From an uncultured Pirellula sp. (GTDB taxonomy: Bacteria; Planctomycetota; Planctomycetia; Pirellulales; Pirellulaceae), in assembly GCA_903892355.1 (NCBI GenBank), contig CAITIE010000011.1:1-64000 (forward strand): a DNA stretch of 64,000 nt. The letters are read 5' to 3'. Numbering within the stretch: the first letter of the stretch is position 1; each line of letters opens with the position of its first letter. This document shows, one piece after another, positions 1,909-51,752 of this stretch. The translations under genes and the position numbers were made by a program. The notes beneath the pieces were generated by a model, which was given only the letters and a program-made list of their open reading frames with translations, searched no databases and was not told the DNA's origin.

Positions 1909-2640
1909 ATGAGTAAAGTGTTGATTTGTGCGGCGTCTTTGCTGTGCCTTTTTTCTGGTTTCAGCCAAGCGGCAGTTGTAAATTTCACAACCACGACTCT
2001 AACCGGAGCTTACAGTGGTAATTTTGGCAAGATTACGGGTGGTGACCCCAGTGTTTTTCAGCAAACTTTCAATTTCTCAGGACCTGCGAGTTTGTTGTCG
2101 GCAAGCGCCCCATATCAGGATCAGCTCAAGTCGACTGCAACCAATCCGAATGGAGGGGCTGCCGTAGGTTACGGAGTCGGTACAGTAAGCGCCTCAGTCG
2201 CTTTCAAGAACAATCTTGGTTTTCAAGTCGCTATTTCCTCGACGGTAGATACCAATGATTTTACCCAGGTTTGGACCTCGGGTACCTTCTCCTTTGTTGT
2301 GGATACTACCACAAACTACTCCTTCACCTCCGCCGCCGGCAATACATCGGGAAATTTGGACTCGGCACAGAATTACATCACTCTTAAGAATGGGGCATTG
2401 GTGATGGGTGCTTCCGGGTCGCTAACCGCGGGCACGACTTACACTGTAGAGTTCATGAGCTACGCCTCGATGACGCAAAGCCCTACAAGCTTCAACCAAG
2501 GAGGTAAGACAGCTTACCTCGAGTCGCAGTTGGATTTTACGGGAACTACCCCTCCAGTCGTTCCTGAGCCTGCCTCGATGGCGGTTTTTGGTATGCTTGG
2601 GTTCGCGGGTTTCGCTGCACGTCGATTTCGGAAGAAGTAG
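1909..2640 (+). CDS. PEP-CTERM sorting domain-containing secreted protein
   Basis: C-terminus VVPEPASMAVFGMLGFAGFAARRFRKK (PEP motif, TM helix, basic tail). Signal peptide begins at MSKVLICAASLLCLFSGFSQAA; the ORF extends upstream to 1717 but 1909 is the more likely start. Confidence 0.85.
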   Translation: MSKVLICAASLLCLFSGFSQAAVVNFTTTTLTGAYSGNFGKITGGDPSVFQQTFNFSGPASLLSASAPYQDQLKSTATNPNGGAAVGYGVGTVSASVAFKNNLGFQVAISSTVDTNDFTQVWTSGTFSFVVDTTTNYSFTSAAGNTSGNLDSAQNYITLKNGALVMGASGSLTAGTTYTVEFMSYASMTQSPTSFNQGGKTAYLESQLDFTGTTPPVVPEPASMAVFGMLGFAGFAARRFRKK

Positions 2641-24697: not shown

Positions 24698-25612
24698 ATG
24701 AATCACTCCAAAATACCAGATCGCTATGTTTGGGCTGACCTTCCGAGAGGAGGACTCGGCAATAAGCTTTTCGTTTGGGGCAACGCATATGTTGTTGCCG
24801 AGCGTAATCAAGTTCCACTGGTTGTTACCGGATGGAATAACCCCTTTGGTTTTCGTACCTTTTTAAAGGGAGGGGGGATTCGACGGTATGGTGCACTGTT
24901 TAGAAACTCTGGGGTTAAAAGGTCTCGGCTTCGAGAGTGGGAGAAATCAATCCAAGAGACTTTGGAAGAGCCCGCGCTTGAGACGCACCTGAAGATTGGT
25001 AGCAGGGCTCTGTTTTCTAAATTACCACCATGGCAAGACTGGTTCCAACCGTTGATTCCGTATCGGTCGATGGTGGTGCAAGGGTTTCATGCGATATTGA
25101 GCGAACGCGTTAAGGCAGAGACGAGTGGTTTGATTGGATCGCCCATTGCCATTCATGTTCGGCTTGGTGATTTCCGAAGGGTTGGCGTACACGAAGATTT
25201 CGCGAAGGTTGGGAACGCTAGAACGCCGATGGGTTATTTTTGTCGACTCGTCGAACGCATTCGTGACACGATAGGTTGGGATGCACCTGTCCGTATTTAT
25301 TCGGATGGTAGGAATAGTGAGTTGCAAGATCTACTTCGTATGCGTAACGTAACCAGAGCGAGAGATCGCAATCCCGTTCTTGATATGGTTGAAATGTCTC
25401 TTAGCAAGGTACTTATTCTGAGTGCGGGTAGTAGTTTCTCGCAGTGGGCGGCGTTTCTAGGTACCCAACCAGTGATAGCCCATTTTGAGCATTTTCATCA
25501 TCGAATTCGCGAACCATCGACAACCGTTTTTGAGGGGATTGCGAATCCGTACGAAGGAGAGTGGGATCCACTTTTGATTCGCAACTTAGTAGAAGAACTT
25601 CAGCGTGCATAA
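24698..25612 (+). CDS. GT11-like glycosyltransferase (alpha-1,2-fucosyltransferase-like)
   Basis: PRGGLGNKLFVWGNAYVVAERNQ (GGLGNQLF-like), IAIHVRLGDFRRVG (HxRxGD motif), LSAGSSFSQWAAFLG. ORF opens at 24635. Confidence 0.65.
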   Translation: MNHSKIPDRYVWADLPRGGLGNKLFVWGNAYVVAERNQVPLVVTGWNNPFGFRTFLKGGGIRRYGALFRNSGVKRSRLREWEKSIQETLEEPALETHLKIGSRALFSKLPPWQDWFQPLIPYRSMVVQGFHAILSERVKAETSGLIGSPIAIHVRLGDFRRVGVHEDFAKVGNARTPMGYFCRLVERIRDTIGWDAPVRIYSDGRNSELQDLLRMRNVTRARDRNPVLDMVEMSLSKVLILSAGSSFSQWAAFLGTQPVIAHFEHFHHRIREPSTTVFEGIANPYEGEWDPLLIRNLVEELQRA

Positions 25613-25647
25613 GCACAAAGTCGCTGGTTCGCATTGGACACTGGGTC

Positions 25648-27282
25648 ATGAGAGGGGTTAACTACGCGACGAGATGGGATTTTTATCTGCTTGGGATCCC
25701 AAGCATCGCATTGTCGCCATTGTTGTATTCGCAGGGGACGTTTTTGTGGGGGAAGCAGCACCTGCAATTTTTTCCCCTCGCGATTGCGGCGGTTTGTTAT
25801 TTTGTCGCGACGGAATGGGATCCGGCGGTAGCAGTCGAACCACGAAAGCAGGCCTATGCCAAGATCCTTTCTTGGATGGTGATGGCGTTAGTTGTGGTAA
25901 GTTCGCTGCTATATAGTTCGTGGCTGGCGCATGCCACGATGGTGCTAGCCCTCTTTACCTGGGCCTTGGGGCGTGTCGGCAACTTGTCGCTGTTAAGATT
26001 GATCGGCATTTGTGGTTTGGTCGCCATCACGATTCCGTTCCCCTTTGGTGGCGATCAAGCGTTGATCGAATGGCTGCAAAAGGCGTCGTCGCTCGCTTGT
26101 AGTCGCATGATGGATGTTTTAGGGATCGTCCACGTTCGAAGCGGCAATATCATGGAGATCACCGCAAAACCATTGTTTGTGGAAGAGGCCTGCAGCGGAG
26201 TTGATAGCCAGTATGCATTGATGGCCGTAGCGGGTGTGTTGCTCCTCATTGGACGAGCGAGTTTGTGGGTTTCCATTGCGACGATCGTGACCGTTCCGAT
26301 TTGGGCCATCTTAGGAAATATCCTCCGGATTTTCGCCATCGTTCTCGGGCTCGAGTATTGGAACCTCGACCTTTCCGAGGGGACCAAGCACACGTTGCTC
26401 GGGTTAGTTTGTTTTTCGATGGCGGCTTGGGCACATTGGAGTTCCGTCCAGTTTCTCAATTTCCTTGAGACGTTTCGGAGTTCCGATCGAACCGAAGAGA
26501 CGACAGCAACCACACACGAGCAGTCGCCCGAAACATCGATCGCGTTGTATCCAGGTGTACTCCCATTTGCCGCATGCTGTGGTTTGCTTCTATTTGCGCC
26601 GTTCGGATGGTTCTTGATTGTTGGAAACCGAGTGCAAAGTGTTATTCCCTCGATGGGGCGGGAGTTCGTAGAGACGTTTCCAGGGAGAGATGCAGCGTTT
26701 GCCAGGGGGCGAGGAACTGTCGTTGGATTCGAAACACAAAGCCGGTCACGCGATGATTTGCAGGGGCAGTTTTCACGTAGTTGGAGGCTTGCGACGGCAC
26801 GAGGGCTTGAGATCATCTCGCTCGACATGCCATTCCGTGGTTGGCATCCCTTGTGGGGCTGCTACGAGCTTGGGGGGTGGAATATTACGTCGAAGGATTT
26901 GGTATCGAGCCCTGGAGGCAACGCTGGATCAGAATGGCCGATCTACGAGGCGATACTTGCAAATGATTTTGGTGAGCACGCGGTTTTGCACTTCGTCCTA
27001 TTCGATCGCAGCGGGACTCCTTACATCCATGAAAACACGCGAATGTTTCTAGCTGAAAGAGATCGAAAGTATCGGACCCTATTTCAGGAAGTGATGGCGT
27101 TGTCGAATCAACTCCAAGGGGATCGATTGCCTATCACCTACCAATTGCAGATGCTTTCCAAGTCGGACGAGCCGTTCAGTCAGTCTGAGGTGCTCGCCCT
27201 GCGGGATCAATTTTTGAAAATGCGAGATCGGGCGATGAGCGAGTTAACTCCTGCCCTGCAATCATTGCCAAATGGCTTCTGA
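25648..27282 (+). CDS. Exosortase with C-terminal EpsI-like domain (exosortase U-like)
   Basis: Polytopic N-terminus; Cys in VEEACSGVDSQYAL, Arg in GNILRIFAIV, His in GTKHTLLGL; C-terminus MPFRGWHPLWGCYELGGWNI. ORF opens at 25561; ATG at 25648 preferred. Confidence 0.85.
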   Translation: MRGVNYATRWDFYLLGIPSIALSPLLYSQGTFLWGKQHLQFFPLAIAAVCYFVATEWDPAVAVEPRKQAYAKILSWMVMALVVVSSLLYSSWLAHATMVLALFTWALGRVGNLSLLRLIGICGLVAITIPFPFGGDQALIEWLQKASSLACSRMMDVLGIVHVRSGNIMEITAKPLFVEEACSGVDSQYALMAVAGVLLLIGRASLWVSIATIVTVPIWAILGNILRIFAIVLGLEYWNLDLSEGTKHTLLGLVCFSMAAWAHWSSVQFLNFLETFRSSDRTEETTATTHEQSPETSIALYPGVLPFAACCGLLLFAPFGWFLIVGNRVQSVIPSMGREFVETFPGRDAAFARGRGTVVGFETQSRSRDDLQGQFSRSWRLATARGLEIISLDMPFRGWHPLWGCYELGGWNITSKDLVSSPGGNAGSEWPIYEAILANDFGEHAVLHFVLFDRSGTPYIHENTRMFLAERDRKYRTLFQEVMALSNQLQGDRLPITYQLQMLSKSDEPFSQSEVLALRDQFLKMRDRAMSELTPALQSLPNGF

Positions 27283-28864
27283 GTCAGCATCCGGATTGAT
27301 GAATACAAGATCGCAGTATTGGGAATGGAGCAAACCGTCGCTCGTGCTGGCGATCGTGACTGCGCTGTTCGCTTTGGCGAGCGTCTACACGCAGCGTCGC
27401 ATTCAGGGGTACTATCGAGGCATTGTCTCGTCGACCTTGGAGAACGTAGCGGACAGGACCCCAGTAAGTATCGCTGAAATCCAGCGTGCCGAGCTTGCGA
27501 ACAAGCGGTTGGGGCAGCAGGCATCCGACCCATCCGAGTTGCAATTCTCGGCCGCGAAATTGGCCAACGATGCATCGATGATGCATGCATCACGGGCGAT
27601 AGCGTTTCGAGAGGAGGGAGAATTGCAACGGTTCGTCGAAGAAATGGAGCGAAGCCGAATGGCTACGCGTCGAACGGTGGATTCGATGCGTCGGCTGGGG
27701 AAAATGAATGGAACCATGGCCGCAGGCGCAAGGCTATGGTTGCTGGGAGAGAGTGTTCCAAGCGGCCCGCTCATGGAAGTGGATTGGCATTCCTACTGGA
27801 TTGAGACCAGATCGCAGGCGCTCCAAGCGATTGCGGATTCGGAGACGGATGAGGCGTTGGCGTTGAATGCTATTCGACTGAGTGCATTGAGCACACTGTC
27901 GACCGCTATGGATTTAACCGCCGGTGAAGGGGGGAAGGATCGCGCCCATCGCCGTGGTGAGGTGGAGAACGCATTGAACGAGGTGGCGACGGTAGCGGAT
28001 TTGGATCCTCGATGTTTCATGATACGGATCGAGGGGATGGAATGCTTGGAGCCTGGGCAAGGCGTTCTGATCGCACGGTCCCGGTTTAAGGATTTGTTGG
28101 CGGGTGAAGGCGAAATCCACGGGTTGGATGGCAGGCAACGCGAGATGGAAAGGATTGATTCGGTATTTGTGTCCCTCCTTGTATTGGATAGTACGGACGA
28201 AGCATTTGCGTATGCGATGAATCAATTGGCGGCAAGGACGCTTGTGGATCCCGAAGCACTCCGCGCCGTGCTCACTCAATCCGTGATGAGAGCCATCGGT
28301 CGCGCCTATTGGTTTCCGAGTGGGGAGGCGACTACGAATTCGAAGCGGATTGCGGGGCTCATCAAAGGGTTGTTTGTGCTGGGGATCAAGTATCCACAGG
28401 CCTTAGAGCTCGTAGATCGAATCGTATTTTTACCTGGTTCGGATGCCGTTGCAGGCGAATTGGGTGAAGCCCTTTCGCGGGAGAGTGGTGCGGGGATAGC
28501 CACTGGCATCGATTGGTTGCGAGACCGGTTTGTTTTACGTGAAAACGTGGGTGGGGATACGAACCGTGCATCCTTGGTTGGAGTCGACGATGAATTGGCG
28601 GTGCCCATGCTCGGATTCATCGGATACATGATCCGCGAGAAGCAAGGTGGATCTGATGTTGCTATCCGCGTGATCGATGAGATGGCACGAAATTGGCCAT
28701 GGATTGGGGAATTGAGGGTTGCGCAGGCCATGCTGGCGACGGAGTTAGGACGCGATGACCAAGCCATTGCGATTTTGGCGGAATTGAATGAAAAGATTCC
28801 GGACAATGCACAAATACAGAACATGCTCGTGCAGGCCTACGAGCGGGCGTTGAAAAAAAGATGA
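27272..28864 (+). CDS. Membrane-anchored helical/TPR-like protein, function unknown
   Basis: N-terminal TM (LVLAIVTALFALASVYT), then alpha-helical repeats ending RVAQAMLATELGRDDQAIAILAELNEKIPDNAQIQNMLVQAYERAL. Overlaps the exosortase stop. Confidence 0.65.
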   Translation: MASESASGLMNTRSQYWEWSKPSLVLAIVTALFALASVYTQRRIQGYYRGIVSSTLENVADRTPVSIAEIQRAELANKRLGQQASDPSELQFSAAKLANDASMMHASRAIAFREEGELQRFVEEMERSRMATRRTVDSMRRLGKMNGTMAAGARLWLLGESVPSGPLMEVDWHSYWIETRSQALQAIADSETDEALALNAIRLSALSTLSTAMDLTAGEGGKDRAHRRGEVENALNEVATVADLDPRCFMIRIEGMECLEPGQGVLIARSRFKDLLAGEGEIHGLDGRQREMERIDSVFVSLLVLDSTDEAFAYAMNQLAARTLVDPEALRAVLTQSVMRAIGRAYWFPSGEATTNSKRIAGLIKGLFVLGIKYPQALELVDRIVFLPGSDAVAGELGEALSRESGAGIATGIDWLRDRFVLRENVGGDTNRASLVGVDDELAVPMLGFIGYMIREKQGGSDVAIRVIDEMARNWPWIGELRVAQAMLATELGRDDQAIAILAELNEKIPDNAQIQNMLVQAYERALKKR

Positions 28865-31820: not shown

Positions 31821-32091
31821 GGCTGGTCCGATAGGGGGCTTGATTGCCCCGGCGAATGACGATTGCGCGACGTACGCAGACTTTGGATTCCTCCATCGAA
31901 AACAATTGTCTGGTCACGGGCGAATGCGAGATTTCGCCATCGGCGGATCTTCGTCGTTTCTTAATCGACGCATCAGAATCGGGCGTCGAATCGTTAAATG
32001 CTGCAAAATCGAGGGCTTTGACCCTTGACGATGCGAGTTGTCACCTGAGAACATAAAGGTAACTTCAAAGAGAATAATGAATATAAGTACC

Positions 32092-34512
32092 ATGGATAAA
32101 CCAAATCCTCAGGCAGGCTTCGACGACTTGGGCGGGGGCTACAAAGCCATGAGTCCCCAGGGGGGCTACGACGATAACGCGTTGCCTTCGCTCGACGTCT
32201 ACGGGGCCTTATGGCGTCGGAAGTCGGTGGTTGTTCTATTGGCCATTGTTGGTGCTGGAATTGCAGCATTGCTTTATTCCCAGGCGACACCGACGTATGC
32301 GTCCGTACTCAGATTGATGCTGTTTATGCAGGCACCGCCGAGTGTGATCAATGGGGAAGTGATTCCCCAGCAAGTCGCTTTGGAGAAGCAGAGATATCTA
32401 CTAACGAGCCAACCGGTGCTCACGTCTGCGATTCAGAATGGGCAATTGGACAAGCTTCCAACGTTTGCCGGCTCGGACGGCCCGCTTGGTCAACTGCGTG
32501 GGATGCTCAAGGTTGCACCCGTCGGAAAAGATTTATCCTCGGACTCGTTGGAGGTACGTTGCGAGGGTGGCAACAAAGAAGACTTGCCCGGGATCCTAAA
32601 CCAAGTCGTCAATTCCTACGTCTCGACCATCGGGAAAGATTCTGAAGCGTCAGGGCAGGAATCGGTGGAACTGATTGAACGCCTGCAGCAATCGCTGGTG
32701 GAGGATCAGCAGGAAGCTCAGTCTCGGTACTACACGATTCTCAAAGAGTTGAACTTGTCTGCCGAGAACGATAAAGGGCGTTGGGTCAATCCCTACGTTG
32801 CAGAGATCGATAAACTGCGATTGCAAAGGGACGAATCTATCCAGGAGTTCCGCAGGTCGGATCAGCTGCTCGAAGAGGTTCGTATCGCGGTCGATCCGGA
32901 CAACAAGCGAGAGGAGTTGCTCAAACTGGCCATCGTCGAGGCGAAGAAGTACTTCAATGTGAACGGTAAGGATGCTTCGGATTTGGATCCTTTGACGATT
33001 GAGGATCGGCAGCGCTTGGTTCGTTACGAACAGAGGCTGGAAGCAGTTACGACCGAGGTGGTGACGTTGGAGGCCGAAAAAGAAGAAACTGCCAAGCGAT
33101 ACGGTGCGAGGCACCCACGCGTTGAAGACGCAGAGACTCGGTACAAGTCGGCACTGGCCACCAAGAATCGGCTCAGCGAGGAATATGAGTCGATGAAATC
33201 GACGCTCGGCGATAATGAAGAGTTGTCCCGAAAGAGTGAGGCATTGCTTCAAGATGTGCGGTCTCGCGATCAAGAGACACTGCAGCTGTATACCGCCGCA
33301 TTGCTCAATCAACGAGAGCGAGCCAAATACACCTTGGACAAGCTCTCGGAGGATATCACCGACCTAAGCGAGAAATCGAATCAAATTGCAGGAGATATCA
33401 CCGAACTCAACATGCTCCGCGATCAGATCGACGAGCGTCGTGAAAGCGTCACACAAATCCTTGAGAAGCTATCCGCAATGCGCGTTGTGTCAGGGAATTA
33501 CTCAACGACCAAGGTGAAGATCATCGACGAGGCGTCCTCGCCTGAGCAAGTGTATCCGAAGCTGTGGAAATTTCTCGCTGTTGGGCTGTTCGTTGGAGGG
33601 TTGCTCGGTGCATGTTTGGCGGTCTTGATCGACCATTCTGATTTGGCATTCCGTACACCGATCGATATTCAGGAGAGTCTTAACGTCCCGGTGATTTGCA
33701 AGGTGCCTCGCATTCGCAAGGGGCGTGTCAGCAAGGATTTTGCGGGGTCACCGATGTTGATCACCGCATACAACTCGACCTCTTCGGTTTCGGAAACTTT
33801 CCGCGCTGCAAGGACTTCGTTGCTGTTTTCTGCGGCGCAGTCGGGTAGCAAGGTATTCATGTTCACGAGCCCATCGCCTGGGGACGGCAAATCGACCACC
33901 ATCGCAAACTTGGCGATATCCCTTGCCCAAACCAACAAGCGTGTCTGCCTCGTCGACGCGGATTACCGCCGGCCTCGAGTGCAACAGAATTTCGGAGTGC
34001 AGTTCGAACCAGGTGGCATGCAGTACCTGCTGGGCGAATCGACTCTGGACGAAGCGCTCCGGCCGTGCGAGTTCCAAAACAACCTCACGTTGCTAACCAC
34101 CGGTGGTCGCCCGAAGAATCCCGGCGAGTTGGTAGCCTCCAACGGTTTTGCCGACATGATTACCGAACTGAGATCGCGGTTCGACATTGTGCTTATCGAC
34201 TCGCCTCCCGTGATTCCCGTCGCTGACGCAACCAGTCTCTCCGCGGTCGTTGATGGAATCGTCCTCGTGCTTCGTATTCGACGTGGTGTGATCCTTTCAG
34301 CCAGGAAAGCGAAAGAACGCCTCGACATGGTGCAAGCAAACCTAATGGGGGTAATCGTCAACGGGATGGACGAGAACATTTACTACAACGAATACGGCAC
34401 CTACTACCGAGGCGCGTATTACAGCGGCTACAACTATGGCCGCTACTACGATCGCCAGTACTCGGATTACTCGGACCGGCCGCGGACTGAGAAGCCAGCG
34501 AAACGGGTTTAG
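32092..34512 (+). CDS. wzc: Polysaccharide biosynthesis tyrosine autokinase (Wzc-like BY-kinase)
   Basis: Wzz domain; coiled coil; Walker A SPSPGDGKSTTIANLAISLAQ, A' VCLVDADYRRP, Walker B IVLIDSPPV; Tyr-rich tail YYNEYGTYYRGAYYSGYNYGRYYDRQYSDY. ORF opens at 32038; start uncertain. Confidence 0.9.
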   Translation: MDKPNPQAGFDDLGGGYKAMSPQGGYDDNALPSLDVYGALWRRKSVVVLLAIVGAGIAALLYSQATPTYASVLRLMLFMQAPPSVINGEVIPQQVALEKQRYLLTSQPVLTSAIQNGQLDKLPTFAGSDGPLGQLRGMLKVAPVGKDLSSDSLEVRCEGGNKEDLPGILNQVVNSYVSTIGKDSEASGQESVELIERLQQSLVEDQQEAQSRYYTILKELNLSAENDKGRWVNPYVAEIDKLRLQRDESIQEFRRSDQLLEEVRIAVDPDNKREELLKLAIVEAKKYFNVNGKDASDLDPLTIEDRQRLVRYEQRLEAVTTEVVTLEAEKEETAKRYGARHPRVEDAETRYKSALATKNRLSEEYESMKSTLGDNEELSRKSEALLQDVRSRDQETLQLYTAALLNQRERAKYTLDKLSEDITDLSEKSNQIAGDITELNMLRDQIDERRESVTQILEKLSAMRVVSGNYSTTKVKIIDEASSPEQVYPKLWKFLAVGLFVGGLLGACLAVLIDHSDLAFRTPIDIQESLNVPVICKVPRIRKGRVSKDFAGSPMLITAYNSTSSVSETFRAARTSLLFSAAQSGSKVFMFTSPSPGDGKSTTIANLAISLAQTNKRVCLVDADYRRPRVQQNFGVQFEPGGMQYLLGESTLDEALRPCEFQNNLTLLTTGGRPKNPGELVASNGFADMITELRSRFDIVLIDSPPVIPVADATSLSAVVDGIVLVLRIRRGVILSARKAKERLDMVQANLMGVIVNGMDENIYYNEYGTYYRGAYYSGYNYGRYYDRQYSDYSDRPRTEKPAKRV

Positions 34513-34589: not shown

Positions 34590-34638
<49 letters not shown>

Positions 34639-34740
34639 AAATCGAAATCGTAATCTTAATCGGATGCTATAGCGTACTTTCGGGTTCGGAGATGGTTTTG
34701 AATTTTATCGCTATTGGATTTTGATGATCAGCGAATAGTA

Positions 34741-34806
34741 GGAGTAGGAGCACGAGCAGGAGCAGGAGCACGAGCACGAGCACGAGCACGAGATGGAGAT
34801 GGAGCA
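34741..34806. repeat. Hexanucleotide tandem array (GAGCAC/GAGCAG)n, inverted relative to 34607-34638
   Basis: GGAGTAGGAGCACGAGCAGGAGCAGGAGCACGAGCACGAGCACGAGCACGAGATGGAGATGGAGCAGGGG. Confidence 0.9.
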
Positions 34807-35203: not shown

Positions 35204-36868
35204 GTGATCATGGCTGGATTTTTGTTGTTGGTGTTTTCCGGGATTTTCGCCCACGGGTGGCTTCTGCTGCAGTTCTTTAGAGAGCGATGGGGATCGAATG
35301 ATGGTCTGTTCGTACCCGTTGCGATTCTCGTGGCCGCGGTATTGATTTGGCTTCGTCGGAAGGATTTTTTCGCTCGCAAAATCGATGATGTCGAGGATAG
35401 CGTCCGGTACCAGAGGGTTCGAGGAACGGTGGGAGTCGCCGGTGTCGTGGGACTACTCTGCGCTGGACTCGCGCTGCTGAGCAATGTGCTTGGTTCTACC
35501 CATTTGGGTTGGACCTCGTTCCTCATGTTCGCAGGGCTTCTTGCCTATCTGTTGTATGGCAAGTACGGCTATGCGGGAGTTGTTCCTGTTTTGGTGTTGT
35601 TGTATTTCATCAAGCCGATCCCCGATGCATTCGATCCGTGGGTGCAATTAGGGTTTCAGTGGGCGTCGAGCAGGATGGCCGGAGTGATCCTCGATTTCCT
35701 CGGCGTCTTCTACTACTACGAAGGAGTGGTACTGGGACTGGTCAGTCAGGACGGACTTGCTGTCGCAGCGTGCAACGGTGTGCGGTCGCTGGTTCCGGCG
35801 GTTTTCGTCGCTATCGCCTGGGGCATTGGTTGTCGGTATCACTGGTTCCGAACCTTTGTGAACGTATGCCAGACGCTTTGTTGGGTGGTGCTGTTCAATG
35901 CAATTCGTATTGCAGTGCTGCTGTGGAACCAAGATCGCGGTGGGGATTGGATAGAGAGTTGGTTCGCAACCAGTGTCATCGAGGTTGCTTCGCTGGCACT
36001 CATCCTATTCTTTGCGTGGAGCAGTGACCAATTATTTGCGAGCATCATCGAGCCATCGACCAATGCACTCCCTGACGGGGTGATCGATCCGGGGCTCAAG
36101 GACGTCGACTCCAAGCCTGTGGTTGCGTTATCGGGATGGGTCGCGATTGTTGGAGTGGTATTCTTGTTGGTCGGATTCGTAGCGATCCGTTGTAGTGCGA
36201 TGTACCCGTGGCATGGAGATCTACTTAGGGAACGGCTATCGTCGATCCAGTTGCCAGGCGAGATCGAAGGGTGGGAAGTTGTCGAGAGCTCATCCTCGGT
36301 CCCTCCTGCAAAGCCATTTGTGTTTTTTCCTGAGTTTGGTTCGACGACTCGAGATTGGGTTTTGGAACGCGAAGGGCGTAGGATGCAATTGCAGATCGCC
36401 GGTCCGAGTCAAACGTATCCTGGGTTGGGATGGTTTTGGAAATGGACTGGCTGGGACATGGGGCCAGTAAGCTACCACGAGGCGGATTCGTCGACGAAAA
36501 CATCGCGGAAATACGCACTGTTAGAATTAACCCGGTTACCCGGTGAAGCCGGAGCGGTGGTGGGTGGCGGACTTGGACCTGGCGGGGCGAATATTCCGCA
36601 GGGAAGCATTTTTGGCGTGAGCGACAACATCGGTGAGTTCCTGGGGAACGCAGTCAAGTACGGTGTCGGGGCGAGTTCGCTCGATGCGGTTGCCACGCAG
36701 ACACAGGGAGTGCCTGTGGGAGCGATTTCCCTCTACCGCAAGTCGGCCCGAAAGCTTGATCCCGAGCAGATCGAGGAGTTGAAGAAGGTGTTTGAGTGGA
36801 TTTTGGATCGCGTCCACTCGAATCCAACGGACGGGATGCCCAAGCCAACATCATCATCAAACGGTTGA
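35204..36868 (+). CDS. Exosortase-like protein with EpsI-like C-terminal domain; catalytic His not found
   Basis: Polytopic; VAACNGVRSLVPAVFVAIAWG and LFNAIRIAVLLWN match the exosortase Cys and Arg motifs; EpsI-like tail GEIEGWEVVESSS. GTG at 35204 or ATG at 35210. Confidence 0.78.
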   Translation: MIMAGFLLLVFSGIFAHGWLLLQFFRERWGSNDGLFVPVAILVAAVLIWLRRKDFFARKIDDVEDSVRYQRVRGTVGVAGVVGLLCAGLALLSNVLGSTHLGWTSFLMFAGLLAYLLYGKYGYAGVVPVLVLLYFIKPIPDAFDPWVQLGFQWASSRMAGVILDFLGVFYYYEGVVLGLVSQDGLAVAACNGVRSLVPAVFVAIAWGIGCRYHWFRTFVNVCQTLCWVVLFNAIRIAVLLWNQDRGGDWIESWFATSVIEVASLALILFFAWSSDQLFASIIEPSTNALPDGVIDPGLKDVDSKPVVALSGWVAIVGVVFLLVGFVAIRCSAMYPWHGDLLRERLSSIQLPGEIEGWEVVESSSSVPPAKPFVFFPEFGSTTRDWVLEREGRRMQLQIAGPSQTYPGLGWFWKWTGWDMGPVSYHEADSSTKTSRKYALLELTRLPGEAGAVVGGGLGPGGANIPQGSIFGVSDNIGEFLGNAVKYGVGASSLDAVATQTQGVPVGAISLYRKSARKLDPEQIEELKKVFEWILDRVHSNPTDGMPKPTSSSNG

Positions 36869-36914
36869 TGAATACCATGTTCGTGAACCCGATCTAACGC
36901 TTGATCCGAAAACC

Positions 36915-38525
36915 ATGTTTCATTTTCTTCGCGAGCTTCCGATACTAATCTTACGAGCTATCTCCGATGGCATCGAATGGTTGCTCGTCGCCATGTGGAA
37001 GCCATTCCAGCGAGAGAGTGACGATGAGGTGCTCCCGTGGCACAAAACTGCCGTGCTATTGCCCTTGTTGATTCCATACTGGTTGTTTCGATTGGCCTTG
37101 GGCGCGTTGTCCTTTCCGATCCGGGCCTTCTTCCTGCCGTCAGAGCGGCGAAAGCATTATCTTCGCGGGATTCCGGCGATGCTCTTGGGAACTGGGGTAA
37201 CGATAGGTTTGGTTGGCTACTTTTTCGTGCACGATCGCGTGATCGGTCGGTATATCAACCGCGCCCGGGGGGAGTTGGTTCGGAATGATATTGAAAAGAG
37301 TATCGAGTATGGTCGCCGACTGGTCTCGGAGCGTTCTGCATTAAACACCGAGGGTAAGTTTCTCTACTCTGTTTCTTTAGCGCAGCAGGGATCTGATGAA
37401 GGTTCGAATGCGGTGTTGGAGGAGATCGCACCCGACAATGTACCTGGATTTATGCCGGCGCATCAAATGCGGGCGATGGAGTTTGGACGATTGCTCACAT
37501 CGGGTGCGGAACCGCGCGAGGAGTTGCTGCAAAAGATGCTGTGGCATTTGGAGCAGAGTGGCGAAGCACGGGACGAGCGGATGCATGGACTTTGGGCGAC
37601 GTACTATGAGTTGAGCGGAGAAACGTCCAAGGCGATTTCGAGGCTTGAGAAGGCTGGGAAGACGAACCCGGCGTTCTTCGTGAAGCTTTCCGAAATCTAT
37701 CGTGAAGATGGCGATGAAGCTATGGAAAAGCGAGCCCTCGGCGACGCTGCTCAAGGGTACTCCGATCGATTGCGGGAGAACCCTCTGTCAAAGAATATCC
37801 GAGTTCAGTTAGCGCTGACGTTGGCGAGGCTTAAGCGTTGGGGGGATGCGGAATCGGTGTTGGTGAATGGAGTGCAGCTGCACCGCGATAAAGAAACCTT
37901 AGAAAAACTCGCCGACTTTTATCTGATGCGTTTGAAGGAGGAAACCGATTCGGATGCCATTGGGGCCGAACAAATCGATTTGCTGTTGCGGGCGTTGCGA
38001 GTCGACGTCAATCATTTCCGCACGTATGCGTTTCTTGCGAAGTTGTTCGACGCCTCGCGCAGCGAAGAGGAATTGAGAGACCTGAAGGAATTGCTAGAGG
38101 AACGAGTGGTAGATGGTGGGAATGCTGCTCTTGCGCATTTCGGTTTGGGGTGTTGGTTTTTAATGCAGCGGTCCAATGATCAAGGGCAATGGCATTTGAA
38201 GCAAGCGATGGCACTCGATCCGATTTTTGTGCTCGCCTGCAATAATCTGGCGTTTGCGTACACCCTTTCGGAACCGAAGCGGCTCGATGAGTCGCTTGCG
38301 CTCGTGAAGGCGGCGGTCGACGTTGCACCGGAATCGAACGGTACACTGGAAATGCTGGGGACGGTACAGCTGGAGCGTGGTGAGTTGGATAGCGCCGTGG
38401 AGACGTTGTTGCGGGTCGTGACTGAAAAGGGAGATAATAAGGGGGTACATGCCAAACTCGCCCGAGCGTATCGCGAACTTGGTGAGCTCGAGAACGCTGA
38501 AAAGCATGAAGCGTTGAGCAAGTGA
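36915..38525 (+). CDS. Membrane-anchored TPR protein
   Basis: TM segments (VLLPLLIPYWLFRLALG; GTGVTIGLVGYFFV), then TPRs (NLAFAYTLSEPKRLDESLALVKAAVDVAPESNGTLEMLGTVQLERGELDSAVETLLRVV). ORF opens at 36792. Confidence 0.78.
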   Translation: MFHFLRELPILILRAISDGIEWLLVAMWKPFQRESDDEVLPWHKTAVLLPLLIPYWLFRLALGALSFPIRAFFLPSERRKHYLRGIPAMLLGTGVTIGLVGYFFVHDRVIGRYINRARGELVRNDIEKSIEYGRRLVSERSALNTEGKFLYSVSLAQQGSDEGSNAVLEEIAPDNVPGFMPAHQMRAMEFGRLLTSGAEPREELLQKMLWHLEQSGEARDERMHGLWATYYELSGETSKAISRLEKAGKTNPAFFVKLSEIYREDGDEAMEKRALGDAAQGYSDRLRENPLSKNIRVQLALTLARLKRWGDAESVLVNGVQLHRDKETLEKLADFYLMRLKEETDSDAIGAEQIDLLLRALRVDVNHFRTYAFLAKLFDASRSEEELRDLKELLEERVVDGGNAALAHFGLGCWFLMQRSNDQGQWHLKQAMALDPIFVLACNNLAFAYTLSEPKRLDESLALVKAAVDVAPESNGTLEMLGTVQLERGELDSAVETLLRVVTEKGDNKGVHAKLARAYRELGELENAEKHEALSK

Positions 38526-38571: not shown

Positions 38572-40458
38572 GTGATGTCACGGGAAGCGATTCGAGAGTT
38601 CTTAGAGCGGATGTGGAAGGGGATCTGCGAGCCATTTGTATGGTTTGCGGAGTACCTGGAGGCATTCAAGCACCGGTCTCTGCCCACCGACACTGTGGAT
38701 TCCGATCGGTCGACTCTTACGGGCAGTGTCGATGGGGAGGTGGAAGGTGAGCGACCTCGAAACGTGCGGGAGTACGTTCGACATTGGATCCAAATAGCCA
38801 GGAATGCTTGGCGTCGATTCATGGACCCGTTAGGTTCGGAGCATCTGGCGAGTGAGGATGGGCTCGAAACGTCGGTCACGATGAAAGATCGTTTGACCGA
38901 ATACAAATCGCAGTTGAAGCATCAGTTTGGGATCGAAGGGAACGAGATCGACCAACCAGAAGGCTCGGAGAAGGCCGACCCAACGCAACCTCGGGGGCTC
39001 GTTGGGATACTTTGGAGGCGTGTTTCGAGTTTTTGGAATTGGTTGACGTGGAGCAATCTTCAAGCATTCGTGCAATTGCATCGCCGCGAGAGTTTACTGG
39101 CGATTCCTGTCGTGCTGCTGCCCGGATTTCTGGCTTTGGTGGCCTTGACGCAATATTGGACTCGGACTGGTACCACAACGCGTTATGCGAAGGAGATGGC
39201 CGAGGCGGTAAAGGATGAAGAGTGGGGGCGTACAGCGAATCTGGGGAAGCGGTTACTGCAAGCGGCGGGACCGAGAGCCGTCGAGTGGACGTATGCGTTT
39301 GGTCAGGGACTCGCGGGAATCTCCATGCCGGTTGAAGCGGATTTGGTGTTCGAAGCCATCGCGCCCGACAACGACATCGGTTATCCGCGAGCGCATCAAA
39401 AGCGAGCCAAATGGTGGGCAGAGCGGTTCCGCGTTAGCCAGAACTCCGAGTATTTAACGCGCCTGCAGTGGCATCTGGTGCAGTCAGGTCAGCATCGCGA
39501 CGAAAAGTTGTACTTGATTGCGGCGGAGTACAACACGCTCATGGGTCGCTACGTGGATGCGTTGGTGCAAACCGAGCGGGCCGCTCAGTTGAACCCGATC
39601 CATTATTTTGATCTGGCCGATCTTTATCGGACGTTGGGAAATCGCGACGGAGGGATTCGAGCGATCCAGTTGGGCAAGTCCGAGTTTGCCAAGCGATTGG
39701 CGGCAGACCCTTTGAATGAAAGAGATCGGGTTTCGCTGGCAAAGGCATTGGCCAAGCAATCGCAGTACGATGAGGCCGAGCGATTGCTCCGCACGGGGAT
39801 CGATTTGCAAGATACTCAGGGGTTGCACCGCGCGCTCGGTGAGATCTATGGCATTTGGTTCGATCAGCAACAAGGCAAGCCGAACACCAAAATGGAATCG
39901 CAGTTAGGCCTTTTGGAGAAGGGACTCCGCGAGGATGGTGGATCTGCATCGCTCTATGACCGATTGCTGGGGATGTACGGGGCTGCGAATGAGGCGCAAA
40001 AGGAAACGGTGCGTCGCGTTGTGGAGCCTCTTTGCGAGAGTGGGCCTAATCCAGCGATGGCAATTTTCGCCATGAGCAGCATGCGGATCATGGACAATGA
40101 TTTTGTCGAGGCGGAGAGGTTGTTGCATCGTGCGTTGGCGTTGAAGCCAGACCTTGCCGCCGCGAAGAACAACCTTGCCTATCTGCTGCTGACGCAGTAT
40201 CCCGAACGGAATACAGAGGCGCTAAGGTTGGCATTGGAAGCGGTGGGAACGGCGCCTAGCGAAGCAAGTTTTCGGGAGACTCTGGGTTCCGCTCAATTAC
40301 GAAACGGTGATTTTGTGGGTGCTATCGTTGAATTGGAGAAGGCGTTACCGGCGGCCAGAAATAAGAAGTTGGTTCACGCGAAATTGGCCGAGGCCTATGA
40401 AAGCCTTGGGAAAAAAGAAATAGCAGAAGGACACCGTAAAGAAGCGGATGGACGATAG
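38572..40458 (+). CDS. Membrane-anchored TPR protein, paralogue of the preceding gene
   Basis: TM (LLAIPVVLLPGFLALVALTQY), TPRs (NNLAYLLLTQYPERNTEALRLALEAVGTAPSEASFRETLGSAQLRNGDFVGAIVELEKAL); shares IAPDN and WHLxQSGxxRDE motifs with 36915-38525. Confidence 0.8.
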   Translation: MMSREAIREFLERMWKGICEPFVWFAEYLEAFKHRSLPTDTVDSDRSTLTGSVDGEVEGERPRNVREYVRHWIQIARNAWRRFMDPLGSEHLASEDGLETSVTMKDRLTEYKSQLKHQFGIEGNEIDQPEGSEKADPTQPRGLVGILWRRVSSFWNWLTWSNLQAFVQLHRRESLLAIPVVLLPGFLALVALTQYWTRTGTTTRYAKEMAEAVKDEEWGRTANLGKRLLQAAGPRAVEWTYAFGQGLAGISMPVEADLVFEAIAPDNDIGYPRAHQKRAKWWAERFRVSQNSEYLTRLQWHLVQSGQHRDEKLYLIAAEYNTLMGRYVDALVQTERAAQLNPIHYFDLADLYRTLGNRDGGIRAIQLGKSEFAKRLAADPLNERDRVSLAKALAKQSQYDEAERLLRTGIDLQDTQGLHRALGEIYGIWFDQQQGKPNTKMESQLGLLEKGLREDGGSASLYDRLLGMYGAANEAQKETVRRVVEPLCESGPNPAMAIFAMSSMRIMDNDFVEAERLLHRALALKPDLAAAKNNLAYLLLTQYPERNTEALRLALEAVGTAPSEASFRETLGSAQLRNGDFVGAIVELEKALPAARNKKLVHAKLAEAYESLGKKEIAEGHRKEADGR

Positions 40459-40649: not shown

Positions 40650-41471
40650 ATGAGATTGTTTGTTGCGAGTTGTCTTTCTTTGTTAGCGTTGTGTGCCTTG
40701 CAATCAAAAGGCGAGGCCGAGATTGTGCTTACAACGTCGACTTACACTCAGAACTTCGATTCATTGGGTATCAACGCGACTGCCAACGCTTTTAGCTCTA
40801 CAGTGGGAACCATTTCACCGATTCCAAATTTAACCAGTTGGGATGGAGCGAAGGTCGGAGGTAACGGTACAACGAGCGTCGCCATGTCGATTAGCGACGG
40901 AAACTCCACTTCTGGAGGGATGTACAGTTTTGGTGCTGCAAGCGGTGCGGATCGTGCTTTGGGCGTGATTGCATCAGGAACAAACATCATGGGGTTTGGG
41001 TTCCAATTGCGGAATAACACTGGCACAACGATCACTGGGTTGGATATATCGTTCACACAGGAGAATTGGCGGTCTTCCACAACGTCTCAGAACACGGTTA
41101 CTGCGGGTTGGGCATTAGGCTCAGGGTCCATTACCTCTGCCAATTACATCACTGCGGTTGGGTTTAATGCAGTCTCGGGTTTGAACTTAGTTGGTCCTGC
41201 AGCGGTTGCTACAAATGGGGCTTTGAATGGAAACGATGTAGCAAATCAGGTAGCAAGGTCGGCTTCGATTACTGGGCTCACGCTCGCACAAGGGGACAGT
41301 ATCTTTTTCCGTTGGGTTGACGCAAACGATACGGGCAATGATGCGGGACTTGCCATTGACAATTTTTCATTGACCGCATTTTCATCATCAGCTGTTCCAG
41401 AACCTGCGACCCTTTCACTCCTGGGGGTCGCGATCGGACTCGGTGCCGTTGCTCGCTATCGTCGCAAATAG
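40650..41471 (+). CDS. PEP-CTERM sorting domain-containing secreted protein
   Basis: Signal peptide MRLFVASCLSLLALCALQSKGEAE; C-terminus AVPEPATLSLLGVAIGLGAVARYRRK. Confidence 0.9.
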   Translation: MRLFVASCLSLLALCALQSKGEAEIVLTTSTYTQNFDSLGINATANAFSSTVGTISPIPNLTSWDGAKVGGNGTTSVAMSISDGNSTSGGMYSFGAASGADRALGVIASGTNIMGFGFQLRNNTGTTITGLDISFTQENWRSSTTSQNTVTAGWALGSGSITSANYITAVGFNAVSGLNLVGPAAVATNGALNGNDVANQVARSASITGLTLAQGDSIFFRWVDANDTGNDAGLAIDNFSLTAFSSSAVPEPATLSLLGVAIGLGAVARYRRK

Positions 41472-51086: not shown

Positions 51087-51752
51087 CTAAGCGGTTGGCT
51101 TGACGATACGTTTGCGGCGTCGAAGTTTGAGGGCGCCGAATGACGCCGCGACGAGCCCTAGGACGATCGAAGAAGGCTCGGGCACAGCGGACGCATTGAA
51201 GTAGACCAAAAAATTGGCTGCTTGAGTTCCTGTTATCTGCGAAGGAGCGGTGAAGGTGCTACTAGCATCACCAACCAGCCAGAAATCCAAGCCCCCTTGG
51301 TTCGCGAGGATATCACGCATTCCAGTACCTGTTGCATCGCTCAATGCGAATGGTGCTGTCGTTCCAGACGGAGGAGGAAGTCCGGGAAGGAAGATGGACT
51401 GAACGGACGTTCCGTTGGTGTTACTGAAACGCATCCCCGTATCGAACATCTTGCCATTCGAGAGCGCGTTCTCAAAGCTAACGTTTCCACGACCCCCGTA
51501 AAGTGCAACGCTTGTTGCTCCTCGAATGGCAACGCCAGCGTACATTGAAGTGAATTTTGCTGCTGCGTTAACGTCCGGGTTCGAACCCGCTCCTGAGAAG
51601 GTGCTTAATCGTCCGAGATAAATGGCACGGACGGTATTCGTCTCTGCTAAACCCGACTGTTGAGCGGCACCGGTACCAAAATAGTAGTCCGCGCGTGTAA
51701 CTCCGGAAAGGGATACGCAAGCAAAGATCAAGCAAGCAGTCAACCTAAGCAT
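51087..51752 (-). CDS. PEP-CTERM sorting domain-containing secreted protein
   Basis: Signal peptide MLRLTACLIFACVSLSGVTRA; C-terminus AVPEPSSIVLGLVAASFGALKLRRRKRIVKPTA. ORF opens at 51800. Confidence 0.82.
   Translation of the reverse strand: MLRLTACLIFACVSLSGVTRADYYFGTGAAQQSGLAETNTVRAIYLGRLSTFSGAGSNPDVNAAAKFTSMYAGVAIRGATSVALYGGRGNVSFENALSNGKMFDTGMRFSNTNGTSVQSIFLPGLPPPSGTTAPFALSDATGTGMRDILANQGGLDFWLVGDASSTFTAPSQITGTQAANFLVYFNASAVPEPSSIVLGLVAASFGALKLRRRKRIVKPTA

Follow-up and report, generated by a model that had tools for sequence, protein, structure and literature searches.

The window, i.e. the whole 64,000-nucleotide stretch of DNA that was analysed, carries a polysaccharide locus of an uncultured Pirellula sp. 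in which two exosortase genes, each followed by a gene for a TPR protein, are encoded on the same strand. Exosortases are enzymes that trim and sort bacterial surface proteins. The genes and motifs of the locus are the following:

25561..27282, + strand: canonical XrtU-type exosortase, triad intact (XrtU_C NF033780, 110.9 bits against a cut-off of 40; PF09721, 95 bits)
27272..28864, + strand: TPR protein whose gene overlaps that of the canonical exosortase at its end, a parallel exosortase/TPR pair (profile matches)
32038..34512, + strand: Wzc-like polysaccharide chain-length determinant/tyrosine autokinase, the upstream partner (TIGR01007, 149.9 bits against a cut-off of 108.05)
35210..36868, + strand: degenerate exosortase (putative pseudo-exosortase), 8-TM PF09721 domain and C-terminal EpsI/XrtU_C-like domain (PF09721, TIGR04178, AlphaFold)
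35771..35779, + strand: motif 1, C188-N-G190, nucleophile Cys kept (Cys codon 35771-35773; alignment)
35897..35908, + strand: motif 2, N230-A-I-R233, kept (alignment)
35969..35983, + strand: site of motif 3 (HxxxG), reading T254-S-V-I-E258 (T254, 35969-35971; E258, 35981-35983; alignment)
36792..38525, + strand: the constant partner, a TPR protein with membrane segment(s) at its N-terminus (Pfam TPR matches)
38572..40458, + strand: second TPR paralogue, seen beside the first in three genomes only (this one, G008 and G005)
40650..41471, + strand: PEP-CTERM protein, candidate substrate of an active exosortase (PF07589, 23.6 bits against a cut-off of 20.7)

The likely start of the constant TPR partner is ATG 36915, about 46 nt past the exosortase stop, and its orthologue in the genome G008 is 84% identical. 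The PEP-CTERM protein, which scores 28.2 bits in the search of the genome, has a G008 orthologue of 90% identity. PEP-CTERM tails exceed the Pfam cut-off 12 times in the genome, and three of these tails fall within the window (2560-2625, 41391-41465 and 51114-51188). The 690-base gap between the kinase and pseudo-exosortase genes contains low-complexity GCTCGT / ACGAGC repeats in inverted arrangement (34610-34795).

The open reading frame at 35204-36868 (+) is genuine and encodes 554 aa from GTG 35204 or 552 aa from ATG 35210; the latter is the likelier start, and residues of this protein (hereafter the query) are numbered from it. The query matches Pfam PF09721 (Exosortase_EpsH) over residues 19-251 with 67.4 bits (cut-off 25.7) and NCBIfam TIGR04178 (exo_archaeo) with 24.8 bits (cut-off 23). 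It is an exosortase of 8 TM segments to which an EpsI-like domain is fused. Its C-terminal domain resembles XrtU_C only weakly (20.6 bits, under the cut-off of 40), and in the tree the protein falls outside the XrtU clade and joins the B-type exosortases of G015 and G017 (support 100/99); score and position together rule out membership in XrtU.

Three motifs define the exosortase family, namely Cys-x-Gly, Asn-x-x-Arg and His-x-x-x-Gly (PMC1569441). The paralogue at 25561-27282 retains all of them (CSG, NILR, HTLLG). In the query both invariant residues of motif 3 are gone, His being replaced by T254 and Gly by E258, and C188 and R233 are present, which bears out the preliminary description of a protein that keeps Cys and Arg and misses the catalytic His. 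Because the invariant HxxxG is absent, the query is, by the family definition and as judged from its residues, an exosortase homologue and not an active member. The same description had also noted NDG at the N-terminal SHG-like position. As a sign of inactivity this was dropped as not diagnostic, since intact XrtU-type proteins lack SHG too (the 25.6 kb paralogue reads QHLQFFPLA).

An AlphaFold model of the query (pLDDT 82.7, pTM 0.83) was compared, by element order and by mapping residues along the models, with that of a canonical B-type protein (pLDDT 83.3, pTM 0.82). Both show the same succession of elements: the helices, two paired strands ahead of the Cys and, at the C-terminus, an alpha/beta domain. 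C188 precedes helix 194-207, R233 lies in helix 212-242 and T254 in helix 251-283, the order in which C205, R250 and H271 follow one another in the canonical model; T254 is near the start of its helix, as is H271 in helix 268-314. Searches of a PDB copy by sequence and by fold yielded no significant match to a solved structure that could serve as a template for the active site (best fold E 0.18). The weak, non-significant resemblance of the C-terminal domain (model m01341575ca14) to START/PYL-like helix-grip domains, with a best E of 0.18, possibly hints at the fold of EpsI-like domains.

The His is otherwise kept with great regularity. It is present in 28/28 canonical exosortases of our first alignment, and in a control of 95 exosortase frames, mostly an order-level sample, 92 fell outside the clade of the query: 88 had complete CxG, NxxR and HxxxG motifs, 3 lacked only the Gly and 1 with a broken frame was set aside, so that His is kept in 91/91 readable sequences. 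The frame set aside (L119, on contig C93 of G158) breaks past the Cys motif and represents either a pseudogene or an assembly error.

Orthologues of the query were sought in 118 related genomes and found in those of the same genus; a profile search detected the family in the 27 genomes of the genus, and among named genomes a scan pointed to MAGs of Pirellula and of related planctomycetes. With the query, twelve proteins, all from Pirellula MAGs as far as the members are named, form a single clade (type I; support 98/98), sister to the canonical, triad-bearing exosortases of G015/G017. Neither His nor Gly of motif 3 is found in any of the 12, the His column reading T, T, M, V, S, A, S, S, L, F, F and L. 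The loss being common to the 12 orthologues, a local mutation or sequencing error is ruled out as its cause. Beyond motif 3, Cys is retained by 9/12 members and lost in the other three (Phe in G025 and G007, Gly in G011), and Arg is missing from 5/12 (G007, the group of G001a, G010 and G019, and G011). The order of branches indicates one loss of His, followed by at least two losses of Cys and at least three of Arg. A clade-wide loss of His joined by losses of Cys and Arg in orthologues strengthens the suggestion, already made in the preliminary description, that the query is a pseudo-exosortase.

Other columns have become or stayed rigid in the same proteins. Q150, G172 and G190 are fixed in 12/12 members; among the newly fixed columns, G176 is shared by 12/12 type I proteins against 0/28 canonical ones, and P196 by 11/12 against 0/28, a pattern consistent with new constraint on the sequence rather than plain decay. 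The pairwise dN/dS between the query and its G008 orthologue is 0.155, and values within the G010 group range from 0.15 to 0.25 where dS was measurable, compared with 0.14-0.17 for XrtU in the same genomes (simple Nei-Gojobori counts, with dS partly saturated). Since these values are close to those of the XrtU paralogue, the type I gene is judged to be under purifying selection and not drifting.

The neighbourhood of the gene is equally stable. Wherever the flanks of a type I locus could be read (11 loci), the degenerate exosortase follows the tyrosine-kinase/chain-length gene and precedes a TPR gene, the latter being the downstream neighbour on the same strand in 11/11 cases; the twelfth copy (G004) reaches a contig end. 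The link to TPR genes noted in the preliminary description thus extends to the orthologues. Likewise, the locus does hold a canonical exosortase with which the query might be paired: where contigs are long enough, the intact XrtU and its own TPR gene lie about 10 kb upstream of the pseudo-exosortase in the same polysaccharide cluster. XrtU is present in 10/12 carrier genomes, the two lacking a match being the least complete (80 and 83%). Two of the three sister canonical exosortases of G015/G017 are also directly upstream of a TPR gene and accompanied by the same kinase family. In a tree of the TPR proteins, the partners of XrtU are split from those of degenerate and B-type exosortases (100/100), as expected if exosortase and TPR genes had moved as a pair; long branches limit the reading of finer branching.

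Type I is not the only degenerate group in the genus. A second clade of 8 proteins (type II) lies inside the XrtU lineage, the branch uniting XrtU and type II having a support of 100/100:

L168: 3594-5297, type II exosortase
L169: 3646-5355, type II exosortase
L170: 1229-2920, type II exosortase
L174: 2855-4558, type II exosortase
L175: 2818-4584, type II exosortase
L176: 2701-4587, type II exosortase
L177: 2785-4536, type II exosortase
L178: 2311-4056, type II exosortase

The upstream neighbour of type II genes encodes a TgpA-like transglutaminase (four upstream genes were tested by Pfam), and a TPR gene follows the exosortase in 8/8 loci. The residue states form a graded series. Cys, Arg and His are intact, with motif 3 reading HxxxA, in G020 and G023; His is lost in G021, G009, G015 and G017, Cys in G016, and all three residues in G002. 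Forcing types I and II together as a single origin is rejected (p-AU 0.001), and by this comparison of trees type II arose independently. The two types were not encountered together in any genome (12 and 8 of 27), which may reflect subclades or functional exclusion.

Across the family Pirellulaceae, 39/122 sampled exosortases lack the His, a proportion that is no estimate of frequency because the profile used for sampling had itself been built from degenerate sequences. Parsimony counts 8 changes of the His state, at least 4 of which are forced by well-supported branches. His-bearing sequences keep Cys in 83/83 and Arg in 82/83 cases; among the 39 His-less ones, 16 lack Cys and 21 lack Arg. 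The coupling of Cys and Arg loss to His loss is not significant, with only 4 independent contrasts on well-supported branches. Several degenerate copies from other genera adjoin a TPR gene, and contig C351 of G200 repeats the order kinase, exosortase, TPR. On these sequences, decay to a non-cutting form seems to have happened several times in Pirellulaceae. One genome (G049) contains two exosortases with near-intact motifs (L211, L223) and single changes, His to Gln and Arg to Cys, which are either early stages of decay or MAG errors. In the genus g10, degenerate exosortases show Cys to Ser and His to Gln replacements (L261, L265), and the g10 copy whose flank was read (L274 in G309) adjoins a TPR gene.

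How such a protein may work is suggested by the combination of lost residues, retained fold and constant neighbours. We consider it probable that the query is a pseudo-exosortase that neither cleaves nor transfers and is kept as a non-catalytic membrane scaffold together with its TPR partner. The ancestor would have been an active exosortase of the EpsI-fused kind, whose gene shared a polysaccharide locus with that of a TPR partner. The catalytic HxxxG motif would then have been lost once, at the base of the type I clade, after which cleavage or transfer of sorting signals would no longer have been possible, and selection would have kept the protein as a non-catalytic component of the membrane. 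With its 8-TM body and its EpsI-like domain, predicted to be periplasmic, the protein would most likely serve as a scaffold or adaptor holding the TPR partner and possibly also sorting-signal helices at the polysaccharide chain-length/kinase machinery; cutting would be left to the intact XrtU of the same locus. The sequences themselves show that the protein belongs to the fold, which residues it has lost, that its clade has a single origin, that purifying selection acts on it, that its gene neighbours are constant and that other lineages have undergone the same decay; that it is inactive, that it serves as a scaffold and what it binds are what we infer here.

Residual or altered chemistry may nonetheless be considered for the query, as Cys and Arg are present in it and Cys in 9/12 members of the clade. 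It appears unlikely that the query is an active variant, in which Cys188 and Arg233 would still work and the part of the base would fall to another group or to Glu258, a single helical turn away from where the His is missing. The third residue need not be a His, given that ArtA of Haloferax requires Cys173, Arg214 and Arg253 (PMC9263693), and the arrangement of residues is suggestive in some type I proteins: the query and its G008 orthologue combine CxG and NxxR with Glu at the former Gly site, and G001b, G013 and G004 combine Cys and Arg with Asp there. However, the acid does not track the Cys, being present in the Cys-less G025, G007 and G011 and absent from the Cys-bearing G001a, G010, G019 and G014, and was therefore rejected as a general base. 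A compensating His, Lys or Arg was sought at and near the motif 3 site in the 12 aligned type I proteins, and none is conserved. The nucleophile is altogether absent from some orthologues that occupy the same place in the operon, so the locus can function without it. These observations weaken the 'different base' variant envisaged in the preliminary description. The opposite view, that of a functionless gene in decay or of a sequencing or assembly error, could draw on the loss of invariant residues, on the MAG origin of the assembly and on the G005 contigs, which break inside the degenerate exosortase gene; against 11 further copies with open frames, dN/dS well below 1, conserved flanks and newly fixed columns, it is highly improbable.

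A different division of labour would make the query a regulator or subunit of the canonical XrtU, binding sorting signals or the active enzyme and controlling access of substrates, by analogy with iRhoms and rhomboid clients. We regard this as unlikely, even if about 10 kb separates the two genes within a single polysaccharide cluster, in loci long enough to show both, and inactive relatives of intramembrane proteases with such roles exist in the iRhoms (PMC6451368, PMC3149277). It is the TPR gene, and not the active exosortase, that adjoins the pseudo-exosortase throughout; the independent type II copies have a transglutaminase gene as neighbour and lie apart from any active exosortase observed in those loci; and some exosortase occurs in nearly every genome of the genus, which makes co-occurrence weak evidence. 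There is, in our estimate, about an even chance of a broader version of the scaffold reading, according to which EpsI-fused exosortases have become non-catalytic membrane adaptors time and again in Pirellulaceae. Degenerate exosortase and TPR protein would then form a portable module for different envelope pathways (kinase/chain-length in type I, TgpA-like transglutaminase in type II, others elsewhere), a bacterial counterpart of iRhoms.

The Cys-Arg-His triad is the basis on which exosortases are named and classified, and a match to PF09721 or TIGR04178 leads to annotation as a sorting enzyme. The existence of a recurrent class under selection that is devoid of the triad renders this annotation unsafe in Pirellulaceae. 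Such a class also supplies natural separation-of-function variants for a family of which the searched PDB copy yielded no solved structure. It points to a non-catalytic role for two poorly understood parts, the exosortase body and the EpsI-like domain, and allows this role to be tested by setting an active copy against its inactive counterpart within the same locus. Our search of the open literature returned no paper on inactive or pseudo-exosortases, which are thus likely, though not certainly, described here for the first time.

With EpsI-fused members of the exosortase/EpsH family (PF09721, TIGR02602, TIGR04178) the query shares the 8-TM core, the CxG and NxxR motifs, the EpsI-like C-terminal domain and the setting in a polysaccharide locus with TPR and kinase genes; unlike that family, the type I clade lacks HxxxG and has lost Cys and Arg in subgroups. 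With the planctomycete exosortase XrtU (NF033780), of which the paralogue at 25561 is a true member, the query has the weak C-terminal match in common. Archaeosortase A provides a precedent for a third residue other than His (Arg253, PMC9263693), but no Arg is conserved at the third site of type I proteins, in which the Cys is dispensable. iRhom pseudoproteases and MamO are described as relatives of proteases, in the membrane or encoded in an operon, that lost catalysis and gained roles as partners (PMC6451368, PMC4794232). They have unrelated folds and are works-like analogues, not homologues.
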